Below are positions 1,526-5,101 of a DNA stretch of 5,101 nucleotides, one piece after another; positions within the stretch are counted from its first letter, which is position 1, and each line of letters opens with the position of its first letter. The notes beneath the pieces were generated by a model. The model was not told the origin of the DNA and ran no database searches. It saw only the letters and a program-made list of their open reading frames with translations. Source of the stretch: Methanobrevibacter sp. UBA586 (GTDB lineage Archaea; Methanobacteriota; Methanobacteria; Methanobacteriales; Methanobacteriaceae). The stretch is from NCBI GenBank assembly GCA_002496065.1, contig DAII01000048.1, forward strand, positions 12,395-17,495, given 5' to 3'. The position numbers and the translations under genes were made by a program.

Positions 1526-2221
1526 TTAGTGTTTGGAAATTAATTTTTTAGCACTTTTCAAATCATTACTGTAGATATGAGCTGATGAGGAGTAATAATG
1601 AACGCCACCGAAGTTTAGCTTTTCCCCTATGATTTCCTTATTTATCTCATCCTTAAGCTTTATTCCAATGTAGGCTATAAAAAACATGTTGGAATAGAAT
1701 GCTCCATATATGTCATTTGATCTAAAAAAGCAGTGAATTGTCAATTCACCATCACGCACTACTGCTTGCAATATCTGCAAACAAGGAATATCCTCACGAT
1801 TGCAATCAAGGGCCGGATCGTAGGTTACGGCCACCGCACGGTTACTTCCAGTAGAATTTAAAATTCTATCTTTCATAACATCAAACTGATTGACATCAAA
1901 ATGTGCTAAAATTCTATTGGGATAACTATATACAAATCCCTGATCGGAGTCATCGTCAAAGGATTTGACATATTCATAAAGGGCATCGCTTTTTATTGGA
2001 CAGCCTTCCATGTCAAACTTTCCTGATTTTATCATGTCAAGCATCATAGAGGGAGTCATATTTTGATACTTTGCCTTGAATTTTAAATTTAAAGGATCAT
2101 CAATAAAATAATAATTCCCCAGATTTTCCTTTAAATGATGATTGCTATCCTTATATGTTTCCTTTCCATCATTGAGGATTTTTTTAACAAAATCTAAATA
2201 GCATTGATTTATGGTTAACAT
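1526..2221 (-). CDS. thyA: Thymidylate synthase, methanogen type
   Basis: The enzyme methylates dUMP to dTMP in the cytoplasm with a one-carbon-bearing pterin. At 231 residues it is shorter than the bacterial enzyme (about 264) and fits the methanogen-type family. Landmarks: FVYSYPNRI (96-104), where bacterial enzymes have the YGxQWR block; NRAVAVTYDPALDCNREDIPC (128-147), ending in the catalytic Cys147; the dUMP-binding block FFRSNDIYGAFYSNMF (165-180), matching RSNDxxLGxPFN; and SSSAHIYSND (211-220), matching DAHIY.NH near the C-terminus. The catalytic Cys is followed by Leu-Gln rather than the common His, and the PFN segment is replaced by FYSN, both expected of the archaeal branch. The ATG at 2221 has no Shine-Dalgarno, so translation may be leaderless. 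A T-run terminator follows. The gene diverges from the radical SAM gene. Methanogens carry tetrahydromethanopterin, so the actual one-carbon donor is not evident from sequence. Confidence 0.9.
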   Translation of the reverse strand: MLTINQCYLDFVKKILNDGKETYKDSNHHLKENLGNYYFIDDPLNLKFKAKYQNMTPSMMLDMIKSGKFDMEGCPIKSDALYEYVKSFDDDSDQGFVYSYPNRILAHFDVNQFDVMKDRILNSTGSNRAVAVTYDPALDCNREDIPCLQILQAVVRDGELTIHCFFRSNDIYGAFYSNMFFIAYIGIKLKDEINKEIIGEKLNFGGVHYYSSSAHIYSNDLKSAKKLISKH

Positions 2222-2312
2222 TAATATTATTTTAGTTTTTATAATATTAAAATATTTATTGACATGTGCTCACTCACAAGATTATTTAAGTAAAATTAAT
2301 ATAATATCTACT
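2222..2312. promoter_or_regulatory. Divergent promoter region, thyA / radical SAM gene
   Basis: Ninety-one bases separate the two start codons and must hold both promoters. Neither ATG has a convincing Shine-Dalgarno, which suits leaderless archaeal mRNAs. For thyA, a TATA-like AAATATTTTAATA lies on the minus strand at about 2257-2245, some 25-30 bases ahead of the ATG. For the plus-strand gene, TTATTTAA at about 2282-2289 lies about 25 bases ahead of its ATG. The GC-richer middle (GACATGTGCTCACTCACAAG, 2261-2280), which contains a short ACATGT palindrome, stands out and might be a regulator site. Exact boxes are uncertain in such AT-rich DNA. Confidence 0.4.
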
Positions 2313-3428
2313 ATGTCAGTTTTAGAAAAAATGAAAGTTCTTACGGATTCCGCCCAATATGATTTATGTGATTATGTAAATCATCAAAAAAGCTCCCAAA
2401 AGAACCTACCTGGAATATATCATGCAACCGGTGCAAACGGCTGTGAAATTCCACTTTTTAAAACTTTACTTACAAACAAATGTAAAAATGACTGCAAATA
2501 TTGTATAAACCAGTCAAAAAGGAACTTTACAAGACTTGAACTTGAGCCCGATTTATTGGCCAGAGTTTTTCTTGACTATTACAACAAAGGCCTTGTAAAC
2601 GGATTGTTTTTAAGTTCCGGCATTGATGTGGATGAGGACACCACCATGGAAAAGACAATAGAAACCATTAGAATCCTTAGGAAAAACTATAGTTACAATG
2701 ATTATATTCATCTGAAAATTGTTCCAGGAGCTTCCAGAGATTCTATTAAACGTGCCATGAGCTTGGCAAATAGAGTCAGTATAAACATTGAAGCTGCCAC
2801 CTCAAGTGGTTTGGCCGAATTGTCCTCTACAAAAGATTACAATAAGGATATACTGAAACGTTTAAATTGGATTAATTCTATTGGAAAACATAAAAGCACC
2901 TATCCAAATTCTACACATACAACCCAGCTAATCGTAGGTGCAAACAATGAAACGGACAAGGAAATACTTACCAGAATGAGTAAAATCTATAAAAAATCAG
3001 ATTTGAAGCGTACATATTTCTCCGCATTTTCTCCAGTAGAAGGCACTGAATTTAAAAATAGGGAAGCATGTGATGTAGGCAGGACAAACAAGTTATACAA
3101 TGCAGACAGTCTGATTAACAGCTATAGATATAATGTAAAAGAACTTGTCTTTGACAATGACGATAGGTTGGAGTTGAGCGAAGATCCGAAAATCTTAGCT
3201 GCAAAAAAAATGGATATATTTCCTGTAGAAATAAATAAGTCACCTTTTACAGAACTCATAAGAGTTCCTGGAATCGGGACAAAATCAGCTAGAAAAATAA
3301 TCAATATAAGAAAAAAACAACCGTTCTCAAGTAAAGAAGATTTAAGAAAGCTTGGGGTGGCTGTAAATAGGGCTGAACCTTATATTAAGATAAAGGGAGA
3401 ATATCAATCTGGTCTTGATAATTTTTAA
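2313..3428 (+). CDS. Radical SAM protein with C-terminal helix-hairpin-helix (UDG-linked family, putative DNA modification/repair)
   Basis: A 371-residue radical SAM protein of the family described as a putative DNA modification/repair protein linked to a uracil-DNA-glycosylase-like partner (TIGR03916 type, from memory). No reaction is established for it. The N-terminus MSVLEKMKVLTDSAQYD is typical. LLTNKCKNDCKYC (52-64) gives the CxxxCxxC cluster motif with Cys57, Cys61 and Cys64. GLFLSSGI (97-104), HLKIVPGASRDSIKRA (133-148), RVSINIEAAT (154-163) and TQLIVGANNETDKEIL (204-219) follow as barrel strands of the family, then KRTYFSAFSPVEGTE (232-246). The end (313-360) is a helix-hairpin-helix with RVPGIGTKSARKI, a non-specific DNA-binding fold like that of ComEA. 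An in-frame ATG at 2211 would add 34 hydrophobic residues and overlap the divergent thyA start; I reject it because the family begins at MSVLEK. The usual partner gene is not adjacent: downstream is a convergent gene whose stop shares the TTAA at 3425-3428. Confidence 0.9.
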   Translation: MSVLEKMKVLTDSAQYDLCDYVNHQKSSQKNLPGIYHATGANGCEIPLFKTLLTNKCKNDCKYCINQSKRNFTRLELEPDLLARVFLDYYNKGLVNGLFLSSGIDVDEDTTMEKTIETIRILRKNYSYNDYIHLKIVPGASRDSIKRAMSLANRVSINIEAATSSGLAELSSTKDYNKDILKRLNWINSIGKHKSTYPNSTHTTQLIVGANNETDKEILTRMSKIYKKSDLKRTYFSAFSPVEGTEFKNREACDVGRTNKLYNADSLINSYRYNVKELVFDNDDRLELSEDPKILAAKKMDIFPVEINKSPFTELIRVPGIGTKSARKIINIRKKQPFSSKEDLRKLGVAVNRAEPYIKIKGEYQSGLDNF

Positions 3429-4096
3429 TTTTCATCAAAAAGTTTCCAGATATTTGGATATTTTTCACGAACCGCATCTTCTATCAGTATTGAAGCTTCC
3501 TTACTTATACTGAACTCTGGTTCTGTCTTACGTAAATATCTAAATACAGCTGCAGATTGGGCAGACCATAAGGTAATTCTTGGATTTTTCTCGACAATCT
3601 CTTTGACTTCCTCAATGTTTTTGATTTCTTTTTCAGTTAATTCAATCTCTTCCTCGACAACTTCATCTTCAGGAAATTCATTCTCTTGAAATTCATCTTC
3701 GTTGTCTTCAACATCTTCAACTGCATCCTCGACAATTGTTTCGACAATTATTTCTTCGACTGTATCTTCAGTGTTTTCCTTTTCTTCATCAACAGTCTCT
3801 TCATCAGGGACAGATTCTTCTTCGGTTTCAATTTCTTCAACTGAATTGTCCTCTTCTATCTCATTGGAAGATTCTTCTTCATCAATTACTTCCTCTTCAG
3901 TTTCAATAGATTCAATGTCTTCCTCAATTATATCCTCTTTATCAGATGTTTCATCCAAAAGAGCACCTATATCATCCTCTTCATTAAGCATGTCTTCCAA
4001 AGACAATGAATTATTACTGTCAAAATCTTCATTGTAAAAATCTGGGATTAGTGAATCTAGCCCCTTTCCCAATCCAGATTGTTTCTTTTTAGCCAT
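3425..4096 (-). CDS. Acidic ParA-partner protein with a ParB-like N-terminal peptide
   Basis: A 223-residue protein encoded directly behind parA. Residues 2-18 (AKKKQSGLGKGLDSLIP) match the extreme N-terminus of bacterial ParB/Spo0J, the short basic peptide known to contact ParA and stimulate its ATPase. Nothing else of ParB is present: no GExR-type CTP-binding motifs and no helix-turn-helix. Residues 20-160 are low-complexity and extremely acidic; residues 51-150 hold 54 Asp/Glu and only two Lys, so this part is probably a disordered linker. Residues 160-223 look like a small helical domain (LWSAQSAAVFRYLRK, then SISKEASILIEDAVREKYP, then NIWKLF) of unknown fold, which may dimerise or bind DNA or another cargo. 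I chose the ATG at 4096, giving MAKKK as in ParB; a GTG at 4105 overlapping the parA stop would add only three residues. The five-base gap to parA suggests translational coupling. The role as ParA adaptor is inference from the peptide and the operon. Confidence 0.8.
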   Translation of the reverse strand: MAKKKQSGLGKGLDSLIPDFYNEDFDSNNSLSLEDMLNEEDDIGALLDETSDKEDIIEEDIESIETEEEVIDEEESSNEIEEDNSVEEIETEEESVPDEETVDEEKENTEDTVEEIIVETIVEDAVEDVEDNEDEFQENEFPEDEVVEEEIELTEKEIKNIEEVKEIVEKNPRITLWSAQSAAVFRYLRKTEPEFSISKEASILIEDAVREKYPNIWKLFDEN

Positions 4097-4101
4097 TATT
4101 C

Positions 4102-4875
4102 TCACAACTCATCTTTTTTTATGATTTCCCTAGCCAAGCTCAAATAGGCCTTGGTACCTGTACTGTCAGGATCATGAATCAGACAAGGTTTTCCATGACT
4201 TGGAGCTTCAGCTAATTTAATATTTCTTGGAATTATTGTTTTAAATAATAAATTATTGTCTGAGAAGTAATTTTTAAGCTCTTTATGAACATCTCTACTT
4301 AATCTTGTTCTTTTATCGTATAAAGTTAAAAGAATTCCTTTAATAGGAGTTGGGCTTCTAAGTCTGGTTTCCACTAAATTAATGGTATTAATCAAGTCAG
4401 CTACACCTTCCAATGCATAGTATTCCGCTTGAATTGGTATTAAAACGCTATCGGATGCAACTAATGCGTTAACTGTCAAAACACCTAATGAAGGAGGCAA
4501 ATCAATGAATATATAATCAAATAATGGAACAACATCTGCCAGTGTATTTTTTAGTTTAATATGATAATTTTCCTCATTGCTCAATTCAACGCTAGCTCCA
4601 CTTAGGGATACATTGCTTGGAATAATGAACAGATTCTTAATAAATGTTGGGATAGTTGCTTTTTTAACGTTTATATTACCAACGAGAGCATCATAAATCG
4701 TATTTTCCAATTCTGTTTTTAATAACCCAAAACTAGTTGTTGCATTAGCTTGAGGATCCATATCAACTATCAATACAGATTTGCCCATTACGGCTAGGGA
4801 TGTTGCAGTATTTACAACGGTTGTTGTCTTTCCACAACCTCCTTTTTGATTCATTACAGCTATCACTTCGCCCAT
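4102..4875 (-). CDS. parA: ParA/Soj-family partition ATPase
   Basis: A deviant-Walker-A ATPase of 257 residues, the usual length for chromosomal-type ParA/Soj without an N-terminal helix-turn-helix. Such proteins dimerise with ATP, bind DNA non-specifically, and are released when a partner protein stimulates hydrolysis, which moves the partner's cargo. Motifs: MNQKGGCGKTTTVVN (8-22) with the signature Lys11 and P-loop Lys16; VLIVDMDPQANAT (34-46) with Asp40; FDYIFIDLPPSLG (119-131) with Asp125 as Walker B; LTLYDKRTRLSRDV (183-196), the basic region linked to DNA binding; and IIPRNIKLAEAPSHGKP (214-230), typical of the ParA/Soj branch rather than of MinD (no C-terminal amphipathic membrane helix is seen). 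The ATG at 4875 is supported by a strong AAAGGAGA. It is the first gene of a two-gene unit with the acidic adaptor. Cargo could be the chromosome or another large assembly. Family assignment is secure; the cargo is not known. Confidence 0.96.
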   Translation of the reverse strand: MGEVIAVMNQKGGCGKTTTVVNTATSLAVMGKSVLIVDMDPQANATTSFGLLKTELENTIYDALVGNINVKKATIPTFIKNLFIIPSNVSLSGASVELSNEENYHIKLKNTLADVVPLFDYIFIDLPPSLGVLTVNALVASDSVLIPIQAEYYALEGVADLINTINLVETRLRSPTPIKGILLTLYDKRTRLSRDVHKELKNYFSDNNLLFKTIIPRNIKLAEAPSHGKPCLIHDPDSTGTKAYLSLAREIIKKDEL

Positions 4876-4882
4876 TAATTAA

Positions 4883-4890
4883 TCTCCTTT
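4883..4890 (-). promoter_or_regulatory. Strong Shine-Dalgarno of parA
   Basis: On the minus strand AAAGGAGA ends eight bases before the parA ATG, the strongest ribosome binding site in the window. It fixes the parA start and shows that the parA mRNA has a leader. That leader must begin inside the adjoining heptad array, so the parA promoter itself must lie within the repeats. Confidence 0.85.
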
Positions 4891-5101
4891 AATTCTAAGT
4901 TAAAACTTCTCAGTTAAAAGAAATAAATTTTCAGTTAAAACAAATAACTTAAAATTTCTAACTTTTTAGTTAAAAGAAATAAGTTCTAAACTATAACATT
5001 TAAGTTAAATCATATAAGTTAAAATTTCTAACTTTTAATATTTAAGTTTTAATTTAGACTGTTTAACTTAAAATTTCTAACTTTTAATATTTAAGTTTTA
5101 A
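4891..5101. repeat. Heptad-phased iterated array upstream of parA (candidate centromere/operator)
   Basis: From 4891 to the window edge the DNA falls on a strict 7-base lattice. Cut into 30 heptads from 4891, 28 begin with A and 27 end with A. The dominant forms are AGTTAAA, ACTTAAA, ACTTTTA, AGTTTTA and ATTTCTA. Words of the form A(G/C)TT start at 4898, 4912, 4933, 4947, 4961, 4968, 4982, 5003, 5017, 5031, 5045, 5066, 5080 and 5094, with spacings of 14, 21, 14, 14, 7, 14, 21, 14, 14, 14, 21, 14 and 14, all multiples of seven. Three heptads equal 21 bp, about two helical turns. The period is not a multiple of three and no frame is open, so the array is not coding. Its place directly before parA suggests a parS-like centromere, an operator for the operon, or both; this is inference. 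The array probably continues beyond the window. Confidence 0.85.
5019..5101. repeat. Exact 34-base direct repeat, period 49, within the parA-upstream array
   Basis: The 34 bases at 5019-5052 recur without a mismatch at 5068-5101, where the window ends, so the match may be longer. The shared unit begins TTAAAATTTCTAACTTTT and ends AAGTTTTAA. Its first 18 bases also occur at 4949-4966. The 49-base period is seven heptads, so the higher-order repeat keeps the 7-base phase. This points to recent duplication of seven-heptad blocks. Confidence 0.9.

Follow-up and report, generated by a model that had tools for sequence, protein, structure and literature searches.

The 223-residue gene that follows parA in the DNA analysed here (a stretch of 5,101 bp from Methanobrevibacter sp. 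UBA586, referred to as the window and numbered from its first base) encodes a protein of the SegB family that bears near its N-terminus the tip motif of bacterial ParB, and upstream of the ATPase gene lies an array of contiguous 7-bp repeats. Tip and gene order are conserved among related archaea, similar arrays precede most of their segA genes, and further copies of the repeat cluster near segAB. The protein is predicted to bind the 7-bp array and to stimulate the ParA-type ATPase via its tip, and we consider it probable that the system segregates the chromosome. The features of the window on which this reading is based are the following:

3425..4096, minus strand: segB-like gene, 223 aa, with an ATG at 4096, beginning 5 bp behind the parA/segA stop
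4043..4078, minus strand: ParB-type tip SGLGKGLDSLIP, residues 7-18, from motif comparison
3617..4042, minus strand: acidic linker, residues 19-160, from composition and low AF2 confidence
3428..3616, minus strand: SegB-type domain, residues 161-223, predicted ribbon-helix-helix (RHH), from profile and hhalign homology
4102..4875, minus strand: parA/segA, Walker ATPase whose nearest solved structures are bacterial ParA/Soj
4886..5095, minus strand: 30 contiguous 7-bp repeats, consensus TTATAA(G/C), degenerate here, from the heptad profile score

An alternative GTG start at 4105 would extend the segB-like ORF to 226 aa. The Pfam scan of the 223-aa ORF gave no match at E<=1, including none to a ParB/Srx CTPase or HTH domain, and nothing usable came from NCBIfam for the ORF or from Pfam for three homologues. 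The presence of SGLGKGLDSLIP at the N-terminus and the lack of the ParB CTPase and HTH domains had both been noted in a previous interpretation made from the letters alone (the sequence-only reading) and are borne out. The same reading described about 140 acidic residues; the linker is indeed acidic and of about that length, but only 69 of its 142 residues are D or E (with 4 K or R). Its length is very variable among the homologues compared, which were all except L001 (masked) and L030 and L061 (truncated). Elsewhere in the window, the gene at 2211-3428 encodes a radical SAM protein of the UDG-linked DNA modification/repair type, with 298 bits to TIGR03916 (cut-off 343.5, not reached), and probably starts at an ATG near 2314 rather than at 2211. 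The AT-rich 814 bp at 712-1525, flanked by ilvD and a gene resembling thymidylate synthase, contain no ORF of 60 aa and may hold a decayed gene.

Sequence comparison identifies the C-terminus as a homologue of SegB, which in the archaeal SegAB segregation system is the half that binds DNA. L076, a homologue of 105 aa, matched the solved SegB structures 7duv (2.6e-8) and 7dv2 (8.5e-8), and profile A1, built from 25 homologues (the window protein and 24 of the 68 ORFs described below), matched 7duv at 5.9e-14. With hhalign, residues 163-223 aligned to eight Sulfolobales SegBs at 97.6% and an E-value of 3.3e-12. Structure prediction, proposed for this domain with the sequence-only reading, gave AF2 models of low confidence for A1 and A3 (mean pLDDT 59 and 70), and Foldseek with the A3 model found no match at E<=0.001, SegB being absent among its 27 weak matches, so the fold assignment rests on sequence homology. 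What had been taken for a small helical cargo domain lacking DNA-binding homology, in a protein compared with McdB-like cargo adaptors, is thus the SegB domain. Nor is the family an undescribed one, as had been suggested: SegAB is already known in Euryarchaea, and SegB orthologues from this group are in print (PMC5120986; PMC12284271). Profile A2 (16 sequences including Sulfolobales) matched in 120 of 132 genomes of the phylum (those at least 80% complete plus the genome of the window), covering 20 of 20 genera and 4 families, and in 4 of 61 genomes from the class of 'Thermococcales archaeon 44_46' (hereafter the Thermococci class). A second, weaker SegB-like match was seen in G017 (G017:C1:478487-478738).

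The tip, as LGxG(L/I)xx(L/I)(I/F/L), was found in all 68 archaeal ORFs behind parA, which come from 70 archaeal loci (at L054 and L055 the interval searched contained no ORF, and L016, labelled as a Bacilli MAG, was counted as archaeal from its sequence). The same motif was present in 60/60 SegB genes of a second set of loci, where segA lies upstream of segB in 59/60, the remaining locus having just 566 bases upstream. With this recurrence the tip is not a product of chance. Of ten bacterial ParBs behind parA, nine have LGxG and the tenth reads LSRGLESLI. None of the eight Sulfolobales SegBs compared has LGxG; their N-termini are MSELD or MNELD in seven and MDSVE in one. The segB-like protein is very likely the partner of the neighbouring ParA, because its N-terminal peptide has the ParB tip motif and the gene sits behind parA in 59 of the 60 loci, and we infer that the methanogen tip acts on ParA as the ParB tip does. 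The ParA partnership claimed by the sequence-only reading is thus supported.

The ATPase itself matches bacterial ParA (243 bits) and Soj (207 and 204 bits) among solved structures better than Sulfolobus SegA (7dut, 66 bits). The possibility raised previously that a full ParB encoded elsewhere is the true partner finds no match to ParB_N in the genome of the window (66% complete), while 21 of 96 genomes of the phylum do contain ParB_N matches at E<=0.001, above cut-off in six and strong in two. From these searches, a full ParB is mostly absent in the phylum and is not the usual partner of ParA. The two strong matches (G062:C57:4630, 121 bits, and G107:C30:11328, 114 bits) may represent contamination, a plasmid or a real replacement, and G062 has no SegB match.

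The array at 4886-5095, missed in the sequence-only reading, had a score of 91.5, reached by none of 3000 Markov shuffles (1000 each for orders 1-3; largest 28.6), and the intergenic control at 712-1525 (814 bp, 75% AT against 85%) scored 5.8. It continues past the window, the 600 bp preceding parA containing 31 + 11 scored heptads. The register is best seen in the half-site AASTT (AAGTT or AACTT), counted upstream of parA/segA. In 35 upstream regions, pairs of half-sites occurred 99, 188, 105 and 127 times at spacings of 7, 14, 21 and 28 bp, and spacings outside the 7-bp series gave 0-17 pairs each over the range up to 60 bp. These counts ruled out an 8-bp register, the one tried first. The in-phase count exceeded all 200 Markov shuffles in 59 of 68 archaeal loci; by the same count no array stood out from the shuffles at L058, L060, L061, L066, L067, L068 and L070, and L042 and L063 were borderline. 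In other parts of the loci examined the AASTT count rose to 1-7, and at L062 to 7 against 6 upstream of segA. None of the ten bacterial parAB loci has an array.

The heptad TTATAA(G/C) was learned from 2822 heptads in 66 loci; the training set of the profile comprised 66 upstream regions (without L025, L041 and L042, which were too short, and without L070 and L076), so scores of the training loci are circular, those of families f2 and f3 (f1 to f4 are arbitrary labels) and of the Thermococci class lie outside the training, and L112-L141 partly repeat training genomes. Two of 59 loci (L165 and L169) scored under the 95% point of the null, in a comparison that favours weak loci, as locus scores were summed over arrays and each shuffle contributed its best single array. 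Loci of the Methanobrevibacter type mostly have 30-60 heptads upstream of segA, all ten loci examined in the sister families f2 and f3 have 7-12 contiguous heptads there, and two of the four Thermococci-class loci have 5; directly upstream of segA in G099 no array was found. Longer SegBs went with longer arrays (rho 0.65) in 44 of the 60 loci L112-L171, with phylogeny uncontrolled. At L195 (G139), also of the Thermococci class, a repeat with the same step and other letters (CTAAAGG/CTTTAGC-like) lies upstream of segA at about 380-548, with lag z of 4.0, 4.4 and 4.7 at 7, 14 and 35, and also 4.0 at lag 15, which makes a related lattice suggestive only. The L195 SegB is the weakest match of the four from this class and has repeated KGLDLKDKGLN-type segments, with no LGxGL tip in the stretch examined.

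In a search of 16 genomes, each in one or two contigs, a site was defined as three near-perfect heptads with at most one mismatch, neighbouring matches being merged by hand and contigs taken as circular (lengths rounded for G002, G020, G024, G026, G033 and G048). Of 61 merged sites, 40 are no farther than 100 kb from segB, against 6.4 expected, though the binomial p values overstate independence as the species are related. Among the 47 sites not within 3 kb of segB 26 are still within 100 kb. Clustering is complete in family f3 (four genomes), with 18/18 sites within 100 kb of segB (2.1 expected) and all of them even within 50 kb; the counts are 8/10 in f2 and f4 and 4/4 in g10 and g16. It is weak in genus g3 (5/19), and in the genus of the window it falls from 5/10 to 1/6 once the segA-upstream sites are removed. 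In the 1.24-Mb genome G099, six perfect cores of four heptads lie at distances of 31-94 kb from segB, and the rest of the genome has no site at up to two mismatches.

The reversed pattern, run as a control in nine of the 16 genomes, matched once at up to one mismatch. Among 99 genomes the three-heptad pattern was found in 67 and its reverse in 18. At up to two mismatches the reverse was more frequent than the pattern in G024 (16 against 10) and close to it in G046 (9 against 14) and G055 (16 against 24), for which reason only the lists with up to one mismatch were used for the counts. In the genome of the window the strict pattern gave no match (the reversed control gave four, two per strand, at up to one mismatch) because the array there is degenerate; it is the profile score that detects it.

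With the exception of one at L208, all scored distal sites lie between ORFs (defined mechanically as at least 80 aa, with 25 bp overlap allowed), and one L189 array sits within an ORF. Some sites share their neighbours: in G129, G124 and G131 the adjoining gene carries MSC(E/K)AS at its start or close to it, and in G129 and G101 it carries (R/A)TEE(R/K)MYDGE close to the start. In four of eight f1 genomes (G084, G073, G086 and G077) 4-14 heptads form a second array some 10 kb away from segA, adjoining one gene that begins with MK(K/R)AVVFDNSGTLIERYR (L184:339-437, L185:8690-8739, L186:12894-12971 and L188:13645-13673); no second array was found within the scanned stretches around segAB of G046 and G040. 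A heptad array near the MK(K/R)AVVFDNSGTLIERYR gene was also seen in G055 (L212).

The most serious alternative is that the array is an operator only, at which SegB or another regulator autoregulates segAB, with the centromere elsewhere. Autoregulation is common among RHH partition proteins, TTATAA is similar to the TATA box of archaea, and the largest arrays, directly upstream of segA, probably overlap its promoter, which makes a role in regulation alone possible. On the other hand, 30-60 heptads far exceed what an operator needs, and copies of about four heptads occur next to unrelated genes at distances of tens of kb, still clustered near segAB. Taking both together, we regard an exclusive operator as unlikely. 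A role for another factor, such as Orc1/Cdc6, a histone or another chromatin protein, with the adjacency to segAB reflecting a nearby origin, appears less probable still. It would fit the location of segB, which in 11 of the 16 genomes is no more than 45 kb away from the best orc1/cdc6 match, and one distal site of G101 (5.0 kb) that goes with cdc6 and not with segAB. But in that same genome an array abuts segA even though segAB is 309 kb from cdc6, and the G099 sites cluster around segAB, none of them within 100 kb of cdc6. Moreover, a contiguous 7-bp lattice is the geometry described in PMC9499535 for the RHH protein omega.

That the protein is an adaptor by which ParA positions a cargo other than DNA, as the sequence-only reading had it, we find scarcely credible. 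A tip on a disordered arm does resemble in its logic the cargo-positioning adaptors, but here the C-terminal domain is a homologue of SegB, which binds DNA, and the repeat arrays are located at the locus itself. The cargo is most likely the chromosome, we infer.

In the mechanism that we propose for the SegB-family protein, one SegB dimer would occupy each heptad and neighbouring dimers would wrap the DNA in the manner published for pSM19035 omega and Sulfolobus SegB. Once coated, the array would be the centromere and also an operator repressing segAB. Its flexible acidic arms would present many ParB-type tips to the nucleoid-bound ParA, the tips would trigger ATP hydrolysis by ParA, and the origin region would then follow the ParA gradient along the nucleoid. 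We also lean, with less assurance, towards a more general form of this reading, according to which the SegB-coated centromere of the Methanobacteria and some Thermococci would be a contiguous 7-bp lattice (a 6-bp palindrome plus 1 bp) present at several sites around segAB, near the origin in several lineages. The 7-bp step would be kept while the letters drift (TTATAA-S here, CTAAAGG-like at L195, and TCTAGA-W in our own reading of a printed motif), and the system would be a chimera in which a bacterial-type ParA is driven by a ParB tip transplanted onto SegB.

Like SegAB of Sulfolobus/Saccharolobus, the system places the gene for a SegB homologue immediately after that for a ParA-type ATPase and has sites clustered near segAB, an N-terminal disordered arm and a variable SegB length (94-300 aa in the published range; PMC12284271/PMC5120986). 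It differs from Sulfolobus SegAB in the LGxGLxxLI tip, in an ATPase nearer to bacterial ParA and in its contiguous 7-bp arrays, where Sulfolobus has 13-bp palindromes with the core AGA(g/c)TCT. This core does not occur in the 5101-bp window (0.43 expected by chance). Sulfolobus SegB is described as an RHH protein that wraps DNA in a left-handed helix like pSM19035 omega (PMC9178275), and omega is stated to need at least four contiguous heptads for full activation of its ParA (PMC9499535), a number well exceeded by the 30 in the window. Contiguous 7-bp repeats with a small ParA partner (whose binding is predicted here) are thus common to the delta-omega-parS system of pSM19035 and to ours, although the former is plasmid-borne and bacterial and the latter chromosomal, with up to about 60 heptads of another sequence. 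A double heptad of WATCACW, which we take to be the parS heptad of pSM19035, gave two matches in the window at two mismatches, the level of chance, and none in the array. With the chromosomal ParABS of bacteria the methanogen system shares the ParA/Soj-type ATPase, the LG(K/R)GLxxLI tip and, in several genomes, sites near the origin gene orc1/cdc6, whereas the partner domain and the site are different and the CTPase and HTH domains had no match.

Two elements are apparently new, the LGxGLxxLI tip on archaeal SegBs behind parA and the TTATAA(G/C) arrays upstream of segA: neither is described among the matches listed when the main texts of the literature on archaeal SegAB, heptad centromeres and Methanobacteriales ParA were searched. 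The SegB-site survey in PMC12284271 reports degenerate sites in Thermococcus and none near segAB in Thermococcus sibiricus, and what the centromere of an archaeal chromosome looks like is among the open questions listed in PMC5120986. The 7-bp arrays provide exact and testable candidate centromeres in methanogens, and if the array serves as a centromere, as is likely, DNA segregation in archaea would become directly testable.
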